64,000 nucleotides of DNA from Prochlorococcus sp. AG-363-P06 (GTDB taxonomy: Bacteria > Cyanobacteriota > Cyanobacteriia > PCC-6307 > Cyanobiaceae): positions 1-64,000 of the forward strand of contig QCGD01000001.1 in NCBI GenBank assembly GCA_003280025.1, in the 5' to 3' direction. This document shows positions 55,773 through 61,926 of this stretch, in pieces; positions within the stretch are counted from its first letter, which is position 1; every line of letters starts with the position of its first letter. Below the pieces are notes generated by a model. That model was not told the origin of the DNA, did no database searches, and worked only from the letters and a program-made list of their open reading frames with translations. The translations under genes were made by a program, and so were the position numbers.

Positions 55773-57278
55773 ATGAGTAAGACTGAAGTTTTGGTAGTTG
55801 GTGCTGGTATAGCGGGATTAACCTCAGCTGCAATTTTATCAAAATTAGGTTTTTCAGTTACGTTAATTGAGTCTCATACTCAATCAGGAGGGTGTGCAGG
55901 TACTTTTAAAAGAAAAAATTATGTTTTTGATGTTGGAGCGACTCAAGTTGCTGGTCTAGAGATTGGAGGGATACATTCAAAAATTTTTGATTTTCTTGAA
56001 ATTAAAATTCCTGAAGCAACTATTTTGGATCCAGCTTGCATTGTTGATTTAAAAGATGGTAGCAGCCCAATACCTATTTGGTATAAAAAAAACGAATGGA
56101 TTGTTGAGAGGGAAATTCAGTTTCCAGGAAGTCGTAAATTTTGGCAACTTTGTTCTTTAATACACCAAAGTAATTGGACCTTTGCTAATAATAATCCTGT
56201 ATTACCAATTACTAATCTTTGGGATTTTTCTCAACTTATAAGAGCATTGGCTCCATTAAATTTAATAACAGGGATATTACTTAAATCCACTGTATTTGAT
56301 CTCTTACGTATTTGCGGTTTATCTAAGAATGAGAGGCTGATTAAGTTTCTCAATTTGCAATTAAAGCTCTATTCCCAAGAAGATGTTTACAATACTGCAG
56401 CTTTATATGGCTCTACAGTTCTCCAAATTTCTCAAGAGCCGCATGGACTATGGCATATGAACAAATCTATGCAGTCTTTAAGTAAAGCATTAGAAGATTC
56501 ATTATATGAAACTGGAGCTAAGATAATTTTTGGACAAGAAGTAAATTCTATAAATTTTGATGATCAAAAAAAGTGTTGGAAAGTATTTGCTAAATCTAAA
56601 AACAGTTATATTGAATATCATGCAAATGATCTAGTTTATACTCCACCCCCACAATCTTTACTAAAGCATCTAAAGGATCTTTTAAGTAAAAACCAAAGTT
56701 ATAAAAATCGTTTAACAACTTTACCTGATTCTTCAGGAGCTTTAGTTTTTTATTCCGCATTAAAAAAAATACATATAAAAACAATCTCTTCTAATCATTA
56801 TCAATTTGTTTCCAATGAATTAGGATCACTTTTTGTTTCCATCAGTAAAGAGGGTGATGGGAGAGCACCTAAAGGGGAAATTACTTTAATAGCTAGCCTT
56901 TTTACTAAGACAAAATATTGGTTTAATTTAGACAAAACGCATTATATAGAGAAAAAAAATGAGTATCTCAAAAAAATCTCTTTTGAGTTGGAAAGTCAAT
57001 TTAATATTGCCTCTGAAAATTGGCTCCATAGGGAATTAGCAACTCCGTTAGGATTTGAAAAATGGACTAATAGGCCAAATGGAATTGTAGGAGGTTTAGG
57101 CCAAGATCCTGATATCTTTGGATTATTTGGATTATCAAGTAGAACACCCTTCCAAGGTTTATGGTTATGTGGAGATTCAATTTATCCTGGTGAAGGAACA
57201 GCAGGTGTTAGTCAGTCTGCTTTAATGGTCTCCAGGCAAATTTTAGCCTCTAAAGGAATCTATAATTTTAATTTATAA
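55773..57278 (+). CDS. crtD: CrtD/CrtH-like carotenoid desaturase or isomerase (FAD amine oxidase fold)
   Basis: A 501-residue flavoprotein with the dinucleotide-binding start VVGAGIAGLTSAAILSK, then GGCAGTFKRKNYVFDVGATQ and a C-terminal FAD segment GLWLCGDSIYPGEGTAGVSQSA. It belongs to the CrtI-like family. The GGCAGTF start resembles cyanobacterial CrtD (C-3',4' desaturase) more than CrtH prolycopene isomerase, but the two are close. Prochlorococcus is not known for the myxoxanthophyll that CrtD serves elsewhere, so its substrate may differ. It overlaps the end of tyrA by 11 bp. Confidence 0.78.
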   Translation: MSKTEVLVVGAGIAGLTSAAILSKLGFSVTLIESHTQSGGCAGTFKRKNYVFDVGATQVAGLEIGGIHSKIFDFLEIKIPEATILDPACIVDLKDGSSPIPIWYKKNEWIVEREIQFPGSRKFWQLCSLIHQSNWTFANNNPVLPITNLWDFSQLIRALAPLNLITGILLKSTVFDLLRICGLSKNERLIKFLNLQLKLYSQEDVYNTAALYGSTVLQISQEPHGLWHMNKSMQSLSKALEDSLYETGAKIIFGQEVNSINFDDQKKCWKVFAKSKNSYIEYHANDLVYTPPPQSLLKHLKDLLSKNQSYKNRLTTLPDSSGALVFYSALKKIHIKTISSNHYQFVSNELGSLFVSISKEGDGRAPKGEITLIASLFTKTKYWFNLDKTHYIEKKNEYLKKISFELESQFNIASENWLHRELATPLGFEKWTNRPNGIVGGLGQDPDIFGLFGLSSRTPFQGLWLCGDSIYPGEGTAGVSQSALMVSRQILASKGIYNFNL

Positions 57279-58107
57279 AACTTGTCCTTATATTTTTTGC
57301 TTGTGAAAGTTTTTTATAAAGTGATTCCCAATTTTTATCTTTGATAAGTGATTCAAATTCGTTAATTTTATTCTTAAATTCCTTTATTGAATTTAGAATA
57401 TTAGTCTGATTATTAATAGCTAAATCAAGACCTAATTGAGGGTTGCCACCTCCAACTCTTGTTGTGTCAGTAAATCCCGAAGCTGCAAGTTTTTGAGTTA
57501 ATCTTAGTAAGGAATTATCTTTTTCCTTGTGGGCAGTTTCTATTAGGGCAGAAGCTAAAAATATAGGCAAATGAGAAATTAAAGAAACTGCTTCATCATG
57601 TTCTGATGGCGATGCTTTGCAAATTTCACATCCCATGGAAGTAATTAGTTTGGAAAGTGTATTAACAGCATTCAAATTACTATTTGATGTAGGCGTAATA
57701 ATCCATTTTGTATTATTTAATAGATCTTCAAAACCTGAATCAACTCCTTTTTGTTCTGTACCTGCCATTGGATGTGATCCAATAAATAAAGGATGTATTT
57801 TTTCCCATGTATTTATTATTTGTTTTTTAATGGAGCCAACATCGGTTACTATTGAATCTCTTGGAATTGCCTGTATTAATTCATTAGAAGGTTTTATTAA
57901 ATCTTTAATAGGCAATGCCAAAATTATGAGCGAACATTCCTTTAATATTTCTAAATCGCAACTAATAACATTTGCAAGGTTTCGTTCTTTGGCTTTTTTT
58001 TCATTAAGTTCATTATTTGTGACTCCATAAATGGTGTGTTTTAAACTTTGGAGCTTTAATCCTAATGAACCTCCAATTAGTCCTAATCCTACTATTCCTA
58101 TTTTCAT
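57268..58107 (-). CDS. tyrA: Prephenate/arogenate dehydrogenase TyrA
   Basis: A 279-residue NAD(P)-dependent dehydrogenase of tyrosine synthesis. It has the nucleotide fold KIGIVGLGLIGGSLGLKL, the segment VTDVGSIKKQII, and the substrate segment GSHPMAGTEQKGVDSG with conserved His and Gly. The helical C-terminal dimer domain has SHLPIFLASALIETA. Cyanobacterial enzymes usually prefer arogenate and NADP; sequence alone does not prove it. It is not fused to chorismate mutase. Confidence 0.94.
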   Translation of the reverse strand: MKIGIVGLGLIGGSLGLKLQSLKHTIYGVTNNELNEKKAKERNLANVISCDLEILKECSLIILALPIKDLIKPSNELIQAIPRDSIVTDVGSIKKQIINTWEKIHPLFIGSHPMAGTEQKGVDSGFEDLLNNTKWIITPTSNSNLNAVNTLSKLITSMGCEICKASPSEHDEAVSLISHLPIFLASALIETAHKEKDNSLLRLTQKLAASGFTDTTRVGGGNPQLGLDLAINNQTNILNSIKEFKNKINEFESLIKDKNWESLYKKLSQAKNIRTSFIN

Positions 58108-58201
58108 TGATTTATTAATTTGAGGCTTTCTGATATTGATAACAATTTTTTGTATATTAGAGTCATAATTTTTTGTGAATTTGATATTAAATGAATTATA
58201 A

Positions 58202-59650
58202 ATGCTTGAAATTCTAAGTCATCAATTCTTGAAAAAATTTGTGAGATCCCACAGTTTAGATTGGGATCATATTTACTCTTTTGGCAGAATAATTTCTAAG
58301 TGTATTCAAAATGACTCTACTTATCTTATTAATTCAGAAATTTTTTCTACAGAGCATTGGATAGTTGCTATTTTTATTTCACTATTTTTACACGAAGAAA
58401 ATTCAACGTTTGTTTTAAATAGTGAAAAAATTCAATTTTTCAAAAACAATCAGATGGAAGATCTAAGAAATCTTGGATTTAAATATATTTTAGAAAATGA
58501 TCAATTAATTTTTTCAAGTCATCGAGTTCGTTTAGTAACACTTGAAAATTTATTAAATGATTCAAATTTCTTTAAGTTGAATAACCATCGGATTGTTCTT
58601 TCGGGTATTGAAGATATCAAACAAGATTTAAAAAATTATTTCAGAATTTCATTATTTAAAAAGGATTGGTTTAATCAATTTAAACAATCAGGACATCTTT
58701 ATTTACATGTAACAGACACATACAACTCTCTTAAGAAAAACTTTTTCTTAAGAAAGAGTATAGGCAATTCTTATTTATTTTTAGAGCAAGAAGAACTAAG
58801 TTTTTTTGTCAAATTCTTTAATGAAAATGCTTCCTTTTCTGATCAATTTTTGAGAGTAAGTAATGCATTATCTCAGGGATGGGCATGCTGGGTAAAATTA
58901 GATAATACAAATTTTGAGTGGATTTTTTATTTAGAGCCTATAGATGAACTTTCTCAAATTAGAGAATTTTTAAATAGTAATAAATTTCTTTTTTTATCTG
59001 CTTTGAGAAAAGATAATTTTTTCCAAAAATATCTTAAAAATCAAAGTTTAGATGTTGATTTGGTGGTGAATTTTAAAAGTAATTTTCGTGAGAAAAAAAT
59101 ATCATTGTATGTTCCACCTAAACAGATGCTCCCTAATAATCCACTATTTAATAGCGCAATTTTAGATAAGTGTAAAAAACTATTAATTTTCAGAAAGGGT
59201 TTGAGTTTAGTTTTATCTAATGATGTCAATTTAAAAAACTATCTAGCTACAGAATTAGCATCATTATATGGTAAGAGGGTATCCCTAGAGACTATACCGT
59301 CTTTAAAAAATGATATTCTATGTGCAAGTTTTGACTGGTGGATTAATAATTCTATTTTAGTAGAAATTCCAGAACAAATTATTATTCCTCTGCTACCAAT
59401 TCCAAGTCTTTCAGAACCAATTAATTTAATTACTGTGTCTTATAATAAAAAACTTGCAAAAGATTGGTTTAGAGAGTTCTTACTTCCTGAAGCAAAATTA
59501 AAATTAGAAAGGTCTATTTCTCCTTTAAGAAAAAATTCTGGTAAGTTAATAATCCTTGATGGAAGAGTTAATAAAAGAAAGTGGGGGACATTACTGCTGC
59601 AAAGTATTAAACCCTCAAAACAAATTAACTATATGCTACCTTTCGATTAG
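58202..59650 (+). CDS. Degenerate DinG/Rad3-like helicase relative without helicase motifs
   Basis: A 482-residue intact frame, very rich in Phe, Leu, Asn and Lys. The last 60 residues, with LLPEAKLKLERSISPLRK and KLIILDGRVNKRKWGTLLLQS, align by eye with the C-terminus of DinG/XPD helicases, where motif VI normally reads QGxGRxIR and is followed by ILDxR. Here Q, G and R of motif VI are replaced. Near the N-terminus (about 41-60) the place of Walker A reads YLINSEIFSTEHWIVAIF, with no GKT/S. ATPase activity is thus unlikely. The frame is uninterrupted, so the protein seems kept for another role. Confidence 0.72.
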   Translation: MLEILSHQFLKKFVRSHSLDWDHIYSFGRIISKCIQNDSTYLINSEIFSTEHWIVAIFISLFLHEENSTFVLNSEKIQFFKNNQMEDLRNLGFKYILENDQLIFSSHRVRLVTLENLLNDSNFFKLNNHRIVLSGIEDIKQDLKNYFRISLFKKDWFNQFKQSGHLYLHVTDTYNSLKKNFFLRKSIGNSYLFLEQEELSFFVKFFNENASFSDQFLRVSNALSQGWACWVKLDNTNFEWIFYLEPIDELSQIREFLNSNKFLFLSALRKDNFFQKYLKNQSLDVDLVVNFKSNFREKKISLYVPPKQMLPNNPLFNSAILDKCKKLLIFRKGLSLVLSNDVNLKNYLATELASLYGKRVSLETIPSLKNDILCASFDWWINNSILVEIPEQIIIPLLPIPSLSEPINLITVSYNKKLAKDWFREFLLPEAKLKLERSISPLRKNSGKLIILDGRVNKRKWGTLLLQSIKPSKQINYMLPFD

Positions 59651-59678
59651 GTTATGATTCAGTAAATATCTTTTAAAC

Positions 59679-59924
59679 ATGGGAGAATCAAAAAGGCGTA
59701 AAACATTAGGTATGCCTCCAAGAAAAAATAATATTAAATCCAAAGAAGATAATTCTCCTAGATTATTTGAATGGCTTCCTTTAACAATTAATCAAAGAGA
59801 TAGTTTTATGAAATTAAGTATTAAAGCTAGTTGGTTTGGAATTGGAGGTTTAGTTCTTTTATGGGTTGTAGTCAGATTTATTGGCCCGGCTGCGGGGTGG
59901 TGGACTTTAGCTGATTCTTTATAA
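59679..59924 (+). CDS. DUF2839 membrane protein
   Basis: An 81-residue protein. It begins MGESKRRKTLGMPPRK, a basic start typical of the DUF2839 family, and ends with one membrane segment (about 52-73, GIGGLVLLWVVVRFIGPAAG) and GWWTLADSL. Function unknown. Such proteins are widespread in cyanobacteria. It stops 2 bp before the convergent recA. Confidence 0.85.
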   Translation: MGESKRRKTLGMPPRKNNIKSKEDNSPRLFEWLPLTINQRDSFMKLSIKASWFGIGGLVLLWVVVRFIGPAAGWWTLADSL

Positions 59925-59926
59925 AT

Positions 59927-61039
59927 CTAAGCTACTGTCTTTATATCATTAGCAACGATTGTATTACTTGGATTGTTATTTAGTGCTTTCACAGAATTAG
60001 AGCTTACTTCACTCCCTTCTGTTAGTTTGTTTTTGACCATAGACTCTACTTTATTCCTTACCTCTATGTTTTGATCTAGCCAAATAATTGTGTTATCTCT
60101 TCCTTGGCCAATATTCTCTCCTTCATAACTGTACCAAGCTCCTCTCCTAATTATGATGTTAGTCTCTTCTGCTAGATCTAATAAACATCCTGTTGTGCTA
60201 ATCCCTTGGCCGAATAAAATATCAAATTCAGCAATTCTAAATGGAGGTGCAACTTTGTTTTTTGCTACTTTAACTTTTGCTCTTATTCCGTATTCTTCTG
60301 TACCTCTTTTAAGAGTTTGAATTCTTCTAATATCAAGTCTTACTGATGCGTAAAACTTTAATGCATTTCCTCCTGTTGTTGTCTCTGGATTTCCGTAAGT
60401 AACACCTATTTTTAAACGCAATTGATTTAGGAATATTACTGTACATCCAGATTTACCAATATTACCGGTTATTTTTCTCATTGCTTGACTCATCAGTCTT
60501 GCCTGACTTCCTATTACATGATCTCCCATTTCACCCTCTATTTCTGCTCTTGGAGTAAGTGCTGCTACGGAGTCAACAACCACAAGATCTACAGCACTCG
60601 ACCTTATAAGTTGATCAACTATTTCTAGAGCCATTTCACCTGTGTCTGGCTGTGAGACTAATAGATTTTCAACATCAACCCCTAGAGAAGCTGCATAAAC
60701 TGGATCTAAAGCATGCTCAGCATCTACAAATGCGGCTACGCCCCCATTTCTTTGAACTTCTGCTATTGCATGTAGCGTGAGTGTTGTTTTTCCTGAACTT
60801 TCTGGCCCGTATACTTCAACTACTCTTCCTTTGGGATAGCCTCCTCCTAATGCCAAATCTAATGTGAGCGCCCCAGTCGATATTGTTTCTACTTTCATTC
60901 TAGAAGCGTCACCCAGCCTCATGATTGATCCTCTTCCAAAGTTCCTTTCTATTTGGCCTAGGACGAGACTTAATGCTTTGTCTTTTTCTTTAGATATCAC
61001 TTCCTTTGAGTCGTTTTTTTTTCTTTCTTCAAAACTCAT
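59927..61039 (-). CDS. recA: Recombinase RecA
   Basis: A 370-residue RecA for recombination and SOS signalling. The N-terminal part has [10 protein letters not shown], Walker A is GPESSGKTT, and [20 protein letters not shown] and loop 2 ([22 protein letters not shown]) are normal. The C-terminal 40 residues are low-complexity and variable, as usual. A LexA box lies 83 bp upstream of the start, so it is probably induced by DNA damage. Confidence 0.98.
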
Positions 61040-61121
61040 TTTTTTTATTCATAGATGAATTTTCATAATTATTCTAAATTCAGATTTTTTTATTTAATCC
61101 AAATTTAATAATTAGAAGTAT

Positions 61122-61135
61122 AGTACATGTGTACT
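61122..61135 (-). promoter_or_regulatory. LexA (SOS) box upstream of recA
   Basis: The 14-mer AGTACATGTGTACT is an inverted repeat with AGTAC/GTACT arms and a 4-nt centre, matching the cyanobacterial LexA consensus RGTACnnnDGTWCB. It is 83 bp upstream of the recA ATG and 14 bp from the end of the HAD gene. LexA itself is not encoded here. Confidence 0.85.
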
Positions 61136-61149
61136 TTAACTGATGAAAG

Positions 61150-61926
61150 TTAAATTGCAAGTAAATCTTCTAGATTTTTCAATTTTAATAATCTTATTTC
61201 TTTCGTCAAACTTCTCCTATCTGATTCTTTTAAATAGCCCCAATCAGCCAAATAACAAGGAATATTTTTTGTATCAGCGTTTTGCTTTATATCGATTAGG
61301 GTTTTCATCCTGTCTTCTATGAAACCTAAAATTTCATATTTTTTATCTAGTTCTCTTGCTATTTCAGTTTTTGTTCCTGCTTCATAACCAAAAATAAATT
61401 CAGGAAAAATATTTAATTTTTCGAGAATTTTTGTAGCAAATATTTTTCCTTTTGTTGTTATTATTCCTGTCTTTATTTTTTCTTGCTTTAACTTTTCCAT
61501 AAAGGCTATAACTTCATAAAATGGTTTATGTAAATTTACCCACATTTCAAAATCTGTATCTATTTGGTATTTGCGAGATTCATCTAGAAATTTCTGTAAA
61601 TCTTCGGCAAGCCAAGAATTATACTTGAGTATCTTTTGACAATTTAGATGATATTTATTAATAAAATCCTTTTTATTATTTTTGTCTAGTGGATTTTCTA
61701 TTTTGATTATTTCGTGAACGATTATAATCATTTCCCATCCATATTTTACCCATGGCCTAATTTCTTTAAAAGTATTTGACACCTTGTTATAAAGATCTTG
61801 GGTAATTTGTATATCTCGTGAATTTAGAAATTTTTCGCATGCTAATAAAGAACTGTGCCAATATTCATTCATGCCATCAACAATAACTCCGTCAAAATCA
61901 AAGAGAAATAATTTCTGCCTCTCCAC
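61150..61926 (-). CDS. HAD-superfamily hydrolase
   Basis: A 258-residue HAD hydrolase. Motif I is FLFDFDGVIVDG with the nucleophile Asp, motif II is GIITTKGKIF (Thr), motif III a Lys in EAGTKTEI, and motif IV is GFIEDRMKTL with Glu-Asp. The residues for phosphatase activity are thus present. A large helical cap (about 20-130) lies between motifs I and II. Substrate unknown; it may be a phosphoglycolate-phosphatase-like enzyme. It lies between recA and tRNA-Gln on the same strand. Confidence 0.88.
   Translation of the reverse strand: MERQKLFLFDFDGVIVDGMNEYWHSSLLACEKFLNSRDIQITQDLYNKVSNTFKEIRPWVKYGWEMIIIVHEIIKIENPLDKNNKKDFINKYHLNCQKILKYNSWLAEDLQKFLDESRKYQIDTDFEMWVNLHKPFYEVIAFMEKLKQEKIKTGIITTKGKIFATKILEKLNIFPEFIFGYEAGTKTEIARELDKKYEILGFIEDRMKTLIDIKQNADTKNIPCYLADWGYLKESDRRSLTKEIRLLKLKNLEDLLAI

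Follow-up and report, generated by a model that had tools for sequence, protein, structure and literature searches.

The gene at 58202..59650 on the forward strand of the window (the whole stretch of 64,000 nucleotides analyzed here) encodes a pseudohelicase, and we are very confident that it derives from DinG, lacks a canonical ATP site, and has been retained by selection. Its open frame of 482 codons is unbroken, as the first-pass annotation had stated, and belongs to an assembly of 1.69 Mb. The gene is a strongly diverged member of sDinG, the short-type DinG that Cheng (2025; PMC11981726) named in a review from Nostocales, Chroococcidiopsidales, and Pleurocapsales. The sections of that review drawn on here describe sDinG as built from two motor domains and a short Arch, with no FeS domain and no conserved ATP-binding residues; they question a traditional helicase function and state that functional studies are absent. 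The window protein likewise comprises MD1, MD2, and Arch only, with neither an FeS nor a pseudo-FeS domain, a shortened Arch, and none of the ATP-binding residues, and so belongs to a kind already described. The main text of the review does not mention Prochlorococcus, any name beginning with Synechococc-, or Gloeobacter, and its section 3.9 contains no discussion of selection on sDinG or of its gene neighborhood. Among the matches listed, literature searches returned no other relevant paper on sDinG and nothing specific on DinG together with Prochlorococcus or cyanobacteria. Our analysis adds the class-wide range of the gene, including picocyanobacteria, its intact relatives, the selection acting on it, its neighbor genes, and a clean natural deletion. 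A gene of DinG ancestry is easily called a helicase; this one is not a helicase by any canonical motif. The gene and its surroundings are as follows.

57268..58107, reverse strand: tyrA-type prephenate/arogenate dehydrogenase, divergent neighbor (PF02153)
58202..59650, forward strand: sDinG-type pseudohelicase gene, 482 codons (open frame, Pfam/NCBIfam, profile, fold model, Foldseek, VIA-align)
59679..59924, forward strand: small DUF2839 protein, frequent downstream neighbor (PF10999, E 1e-24; adjacent in 48 of 98 genomes)
59927..61039, reverse strand: recA, beyond DUF2839 (PF00154)

The ATG fits a conserved start: with each homolog's start codon taken as the one closest to that column of the alignment, 111 of 112 homologs open with a start residue followed by a hydrophobic residue and then Glu, and the remaining one (L109) has one residue more. 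Scans of 57200-61200 gave 12 promoter matches, compared with 19.8 in shuffled sequence, and 1 terminator match, compared with 1.8; both lie below the shuffle level, so nothing is claimed from these predictions.

Kinship with DinG is faint in the single sequence and clear in profiles and predicted structure. Pfam returned Helicase_C_2 only, below threshold (15.5 bits, with 25.3 required; residues 392-471). In NCBIfam, the YoaA model aligned to residues 198-475 with E 4e-11 and DinG models followed at E 2e-7 and 5e-5, all with scores far short of the curated equivalog cut-offs (YoaA, 42.3 bits against 680; DinG, 29.8 against 598). A PDB search with the single window sequence gave no DinG, while a 67-sequence profile retrieved E. 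coli DinG (6fwr) at 2.9e-9, with the next match at 0.66, and a 29-sequence profile retrieved it at 5.6e-10, with the next at 1.8; non-DinG PDB matches (E 0.077 or worse) were taken as chance. All 29 members of alignment A2, which holds members of the same class outside the gene's own family, matched Helicase_C_2 at E ≤ 0.01 and YoaA at E ≤ 0.001. Given the NCBIfam matches and the 67-sequence profile, the resemblance is genuine and extends past the final 60 residues, to which the first-pass annotation, working by eye, had confined it.

The predicted fold agrees with the profile search. AlphaFold2 models the window protein with a DinG/XPD fold over its whole length (pLDDT 89.4, pTM 0.86) and a homolog from another locus (L066) with a pLDDT of 88.0, and DinG and XPD chains top the Foldseek lists for both models; for the window model, the best PDB match is DinG 6fwr (E 4.5e-15). 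With VIA-align, the window model superposes on S. aureus DinG 8zef_A with Z 30.4 and rmsd 3.5 over 464 aligned residues, and the L066 model on S. aureus DinG with Z 33.6 and rmsd 3.9 over 493 residues. The window model thus predicts two RecA-like lobes in the DinG arrangement, the architecture that the earlier annotation had proposed to look for. Identity between the window protein and members outside its own genus is 20-28%.

The loss of the catalytic motifs was assessed by aligning 200 homologs with 12 intact relatives, namely nine helicases from sister lineages and three intact cyanobacterial DinG paralogs. The 200 homologs combine 112, 8, and 80 loci and, with three pairs being repeats, represent 197 distinct ones; the 112 are what remained once L031, L052, L053, and L054 had been dropped as repeats and L108 as a 100-base placeholder. 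At the aligned places, G.GK[ST], DE.H, SAT, and EG.[DS] each occur in 0/200 homologs and in 12/12 intact relatives, and G.GR at the motif VI place occurs in 1/200 against 12/12. The zero counts are unchanged among the 197 distinct homologs. All of the following places lie on the forward strand and were located by alignment, motif I specifically with the intact sister helicases.

58328..58360, forward strand: motif I (Walker A) place, residues 43-53, no P-loop
58601..58612, forward strand: motif II (DEAH) place, residues 134-137, SGIE (DE.H in 0/200)
58997..59005, forward strand: motif III (SAT) place, residues 266-268, SAL
59336..59353, forward strand: motif V (FWEGVD) place, residues 379-384, WWINNS
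59507..59530, forward strand: motif VI place, residues 436-443, ERSISPLR in the ungapped reading (G.GR in 1/200)

Both motif changes noted by eye in the first-pass annotation, a Walker A place without GKT/S and an altered motif VI, are confirmed. For the latter, all nine intact sister helicases read QGFGRLIR, and in the alignment R437-R443 stand opposite QGFGRLI, while the final Arg of that motif faces a gap. At the motif V place, the second position is Trp in 199/200 homologs. In 200/200 homologs, nothing aligns with the three FeS cysteines of the reference, and the segment between motifs Ia and II, which holds the FeS domain, is a median 68 residues long, compared with 149 in the intact relatives; the FeS domain is gone. 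Similarly, the segment between motifs II and III, the Arch, is shortened to a median of 135 residues against 180. For sDinG, an additional helix occupying the nucleotide site is described; by the secondary-structure assignments, the window model has a short helix (46-49) at this place and the L066 model has none.

Motif decay was unequal across homologs, as two of them (L214 and L215) retain a match to DE[AGMK][HD] close to where motif II belongs. GK[ST] alone survives in the motif I zone of a single homolog, L215, where the rest of the P-loop is missing. On this sequence evidence, the motif II remnants in both proteins and the GK[ST] of L215 speak against a complete decay at once.

CasDinG and Gram-positive ExoDinG keep their motor motifs. 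As DinG branches in which the FeS domain is vestigial or a pseudo-domain, they resemble the window protein (PMC11981726, PMC10450177, PMC12345164), and accounts of helicase activity in S. aureus ExoDinG diverge, with none cited in PMC11981726 and a 5'-3' helicase described in PMC12345164. Compared with DinG/YoaA, XPD-like members of SF2, the window protein shares the predicted fold, the P motif place, the LDxR...G element, and the best profile matches, but it is without motifs I, II, III, V, and VI and the FeS domain. Deinococcus radiodurans PriA offers a bacterial parallel, a helicase that has been kept although its motifs show little conservation across a lineage: its ATPase and unwinding activities are absent, and DNA binding and evidence of DnaB contact remain (PMC4504706). 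PriA differs in belonging to another helicase family, and the window protein is known from sequence and models. Likewise, the Utp25 pseudohelicase keeps a helicase fold and its motifs are dispensable, although Utp25 is a eukaryotic, DEAD-box-like ribosome assembly factor (PMC9539457).

The gene is not a peculiarity of small genomes. Among 291 genomes sampled from the phylum, 148 matched, 139 of them in the same class and nine outside it. Within the class, 139/141 sampled genomes carry the gene, where the class size of 141 was taken from DUF2839 in the same sample (140 class members match, G373 is missing); G082 and G096, both of family f23, are the sole class members without a match among the non-matches listed, a listing that leaves 123 further non-matches unnamed. 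Carriers include genomes of 5-8 Mb, and tying the loss to a streamlined genome, the setting in which the first-pass annotation discussed the gene, is not supported. In the gene's own picocyanobacterial family, 195/200 genomes match (misses: G288, G108, G111, G232, and G260). In another sample, 15/99 genomes were missed, comprising 13 of the same genus, many of them incomplete, plus G082 and G096. Helicase_C_2 has no match in G082; its two matches in G096 both score below the cut-off, and one of them is a different SF2 helicase by sequence.

Of seven own-family genomes (G288, G038, G006, G009, G232, G260, and G108), six lack a recA match at E 1e-50 and G009 has a partial one; all seven also lack a tyrA match at 1e-10, in a search that had no positive control. 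We read these absences as missing assembly segments. G111 is the sole clean loss among the missing cases examined: in its locus (L231, C1:388000-400000), no sDinG match lies between tyrA and DUF2839, and the order moeB, CAAD, fructosamine kinase, crtH, tyrA, DUF2839, recA, HAD, ldpA is intact. This clean deletion, together with the f23 genomes without a match, stands against an indispensable role.

The nine matches among the 150 genomes outside the class are intact DinG/YoaA-type helicases with frames of 621-1016 residues that carry AGTGSGKS or AGTGCGKS, DEAH, and QGFGRLIR. In a tree of 57 sequences that included 39 of the 200 dead copies, a single branch (100/100) separates all 39 from the other sequences, and the stem leading to them is 2.3 changes per column long. 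This one monophyletic dead clade points to a single, ancient loss, as far as the sequences indicate. Support is 87/72 for the group of intact helicases from sister lineages and 91/83 for the other DinG/YoaA proteins and paralogs; the tree program flags long branches and uneven composition, so that the point at which the dead clade attaches has only moderate support. Viewed from the intact proteins, the copy of G072, which has an intact DinG (L207) besides its dead copy, is the first branch among the dead (100/94). A dead motor, intact sister relatives, and a natural deletion together form a before-and-after system for helicase repurposing.

Three cyanobacterial genomes (L207, L208, and L209) have an intact DinG of 684-725 aa alongside the dead copy. 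In the window's own genome, an active paralog was sought and rejected, as the sole Helicase_C_2 match up to E 10 is the pseudohelicase gene itself. A mobile origin was likewise set aside: the L066 homolog has no plasmid match, and its weak matches fall in three phage records, two of them of the same phage. The branch leading to the window's own genus (L001, L002, L013, and L024) measures 2.07, and identity within the genus is about 70%. The pseudohelicase of this genus seems to have undergone one fast change and then settled.

Kept by nearly all sampled photosynthetic cyanobacteria and without its ATP parts, the protein probably has a different job, one other than DNA unwinding. The explanation that we favor, with modest confidence, is an sDinG-type pseudohelicase of vertical descent that serves as an ATP-independent, two-lobed scaffold with part of the HD2 grip. 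An ancestral DinG/YoaA-like helicase would have shed both the FeS domain and the ATP motifs ahead of the divergence among sampled members of the photosynthetic class, and the product would then have been inherited vertically. The protein may now be a two-lobed scaffold working without ATP, in which the HD2 lobe would hold part of the old single-strand grip (the P motif place and Asp-Trp-Phe), while the decayed nucleotide cleft and a new N-terminal patch might hold a partner or lock the lobes. A broader account holds that a DinG/YoaA gene became an ATP-independent, class-specific protein before photosynthetic cyanobacteria radiated, that it often lies beside DUF2839 and in many families DUF1815, that it is kept even in very small free-living phototroph genomes, and that its nucleotide cleft was repurposed; we place it a little short of an even chance.

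Judged from the alignment, the features that the pseudohelicase keeps are mostly those of HD2, and two of them are located here.

59396..59413, forward strand: P motif place of HD2 (EcDinG 614-619), residues 399-404, P399 in 200/200 (motif as in PMC6300356)
59462..59470, forward strand: Asp-Trp-Phe, residues 421-423, W422 and F423 in 200/200

F423 aligns with EcDinG F638, which is described as stacking on a deoxyribose sugar, with F615 as the second stacking residue (PMC6300356). Nucleic-acid binding as the working activity is nevertheless a tentative proposal drawn from these residues, somewhat less probable than an even call. Against it stand the replacement of F615, the loss of Y636, and a pI without family-wide basic character. 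At the F615 place, the homologs have Phe in 15/200 and I or L in 180/200, compared with Phe in 12/12 intact relatives; Y636 is missing from the homologs and the intact relatives alike. The pI is about 9.3 in the window's own genus, and the median of 6.3 elsewhere gives the family no general basic character.

The same evidence bears on the main competitor, a pure protein-protein adaptor that makes no nucleic-acid contact and keeps its HD2 residues for folding, which we consider unlikely, though a serious contender. It would agree with the loss of the ATP motifs, with the pI outside the genus, and with the account of Nostoc sDinG in the cited sections of the review, where DNA-binding residues of MD1 are missing and the predicted complex places only partial DNA on MD2 (PMC11981726). 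It would also suit the new N-terminal patch, in which E3, H7, H23, and R29 are conserved in 39/39 dead representatives and W21 in 38/39; in all, 25 positions are conserved in at least 34/39 dead representatives and differ in the intact proteins. The invariance of the deoxyribose-stacking Phe of EcDinG in 200/200 homologs counts against an adaptor, yet all 12 intact relatives carry this Phe as well, so it fits either a nucleic-acid grip or an adaptor.

The gene neighborhood leads to another possibility. The earlier description of the gene as next to recA holds insofar as recA is nearby, but recA lies on the opposite strand with a single small gene, DUF2839, in between; the latter is on the same strand as the pseudohelicase, 28 bp downstream. 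Adjacency to recA is lineage-limited, and DUF2839 is the more widespread neighbor: within the flanks examined (0-8 kb), recA occurs in 84/87 picocyanobacterial loci against 8/117 loci outside that family. A DUF2839 gene follows within 1 kb on the same strand in 48 of the 98 class genomes outside the gene's own family, in 14/27 families, at a median gap of about 125 bp; the 98 are those with both genes entered, leaving out the weak DUF2839 matches of G418, G446, and G509, and counting these three as non-adjacent gives 48/101. In the 117 loci outside the family, 80 of which are nearest relatives of one query, DUF2839 is next in 83 and DUF1815 in 66; for instance, both come after the pseudohelicase at L066:5606-6577. 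Literature searches brought up one paper for DUF2839 and two for DUF1815, so that neither family has more than a trace in the publications covered. The three genes make up a small set of uncharacterized cyanobacterial genes that can be tested together.

From this arrangement one could propose that the pseudohelicase forms a cyanobacteria-specific unit with DUF2839, possibly membrane-tethered and unrelated to DNA repair, an improbable alternative in our judgment. The DUF2839 protein of the window has a hydrophobic segment, by eye, and the adjacency counts speak for such a unit, as does DUF1815 further along. Conversely, DUF2839 persists without the pseudohelicase in G111, G082, and G096, and the G111 gene order and the lone DUF2839 of G082 and G096 mean that the linkage is not obligatory. 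In addition, half of the 98 genomes have the two genes at separate places, and the window's own genus keeps the pseudohelicase while DUF1815 is absent from 37/37 of its genomes tested; DUF1815 is also absent from G082 and present in 22 tested genomes of other families. In G418 and G446, the weak DUF2839 matches contain internal stop codons, and DUF2839 may be decaying there.

A link to the SOS response was also considered and rejected. A perfect palindrome at 61122-61135, read on both strands upstream of recA, matches what we take to be the LexA-type pattern. It is the sole exact match in the window, where 0.24 are expected by chance and 4/100 shuffles reach 2, and the scan of the 64-kb window found no exact match at the pseudohelicase gene. 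Of the retained, non-catalytic role in DNA metabolism that had been suggested for this protein, the retention and the lack of catalysis are supported and the DNA metabolism is not, with recA adjacency lineage-limited and no exact LexA box at the gene. Ancestry is the only basis for linking the pseudohelicase to DNA repair.

Another rival to the favored ATP-independent scaffold is a cryptic ATPase whose site has been rebuilt in a non-canonical form, and we regard this as very improbable. Its best indications are the Asp at the DEAH aspartate place in 110/200 homologs and the two copies that still match DE[AGMK][HD]; on the other side, the motif I Lys, the DEAH His (kept in 2/200), SAT, and both the G and the R of motif VI have disappeared together.

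Selection on the pseudohelicase within its own genus is purifying. By the Nei-Gojobori method, the median dN/dS was 0.180 over 1103 non-independent pairs of 56 copies (50 of the same genus and six of the sister genus), and the same comparison gave medians of 0.188 for tyrA, 0.017 for recA, and 0.154 for DUF2839. Pooled over 25 disjoint pairs within the genus, dN/dS was 0.234 (bootstrap 0.211-0.257); the range of 0.18-0.23 is far from 1, the value named at the outset as the one to look for in a gene without constraint. The other outcome that would have overturned the initial claim, a profile search without DinG, did not occur either. The window's copy is among 42/42 full-length copies of the genus without an internal stop, and six more copies are partial. 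A decaying pseudogene, for which one might cite the stem of 2.3, the branch of 2.07, and the clean loss in G111, is next to impossible with these uninterrupted frames and a dN/dS whose upper bound is 0.257. Across four successive segments of the gene, the 25 disjoint pairs gave dN/dS values of 0.277, 0.266, 0.178, and 0.213, which means that the N-terminal part, the former ATP site, is also constrained.
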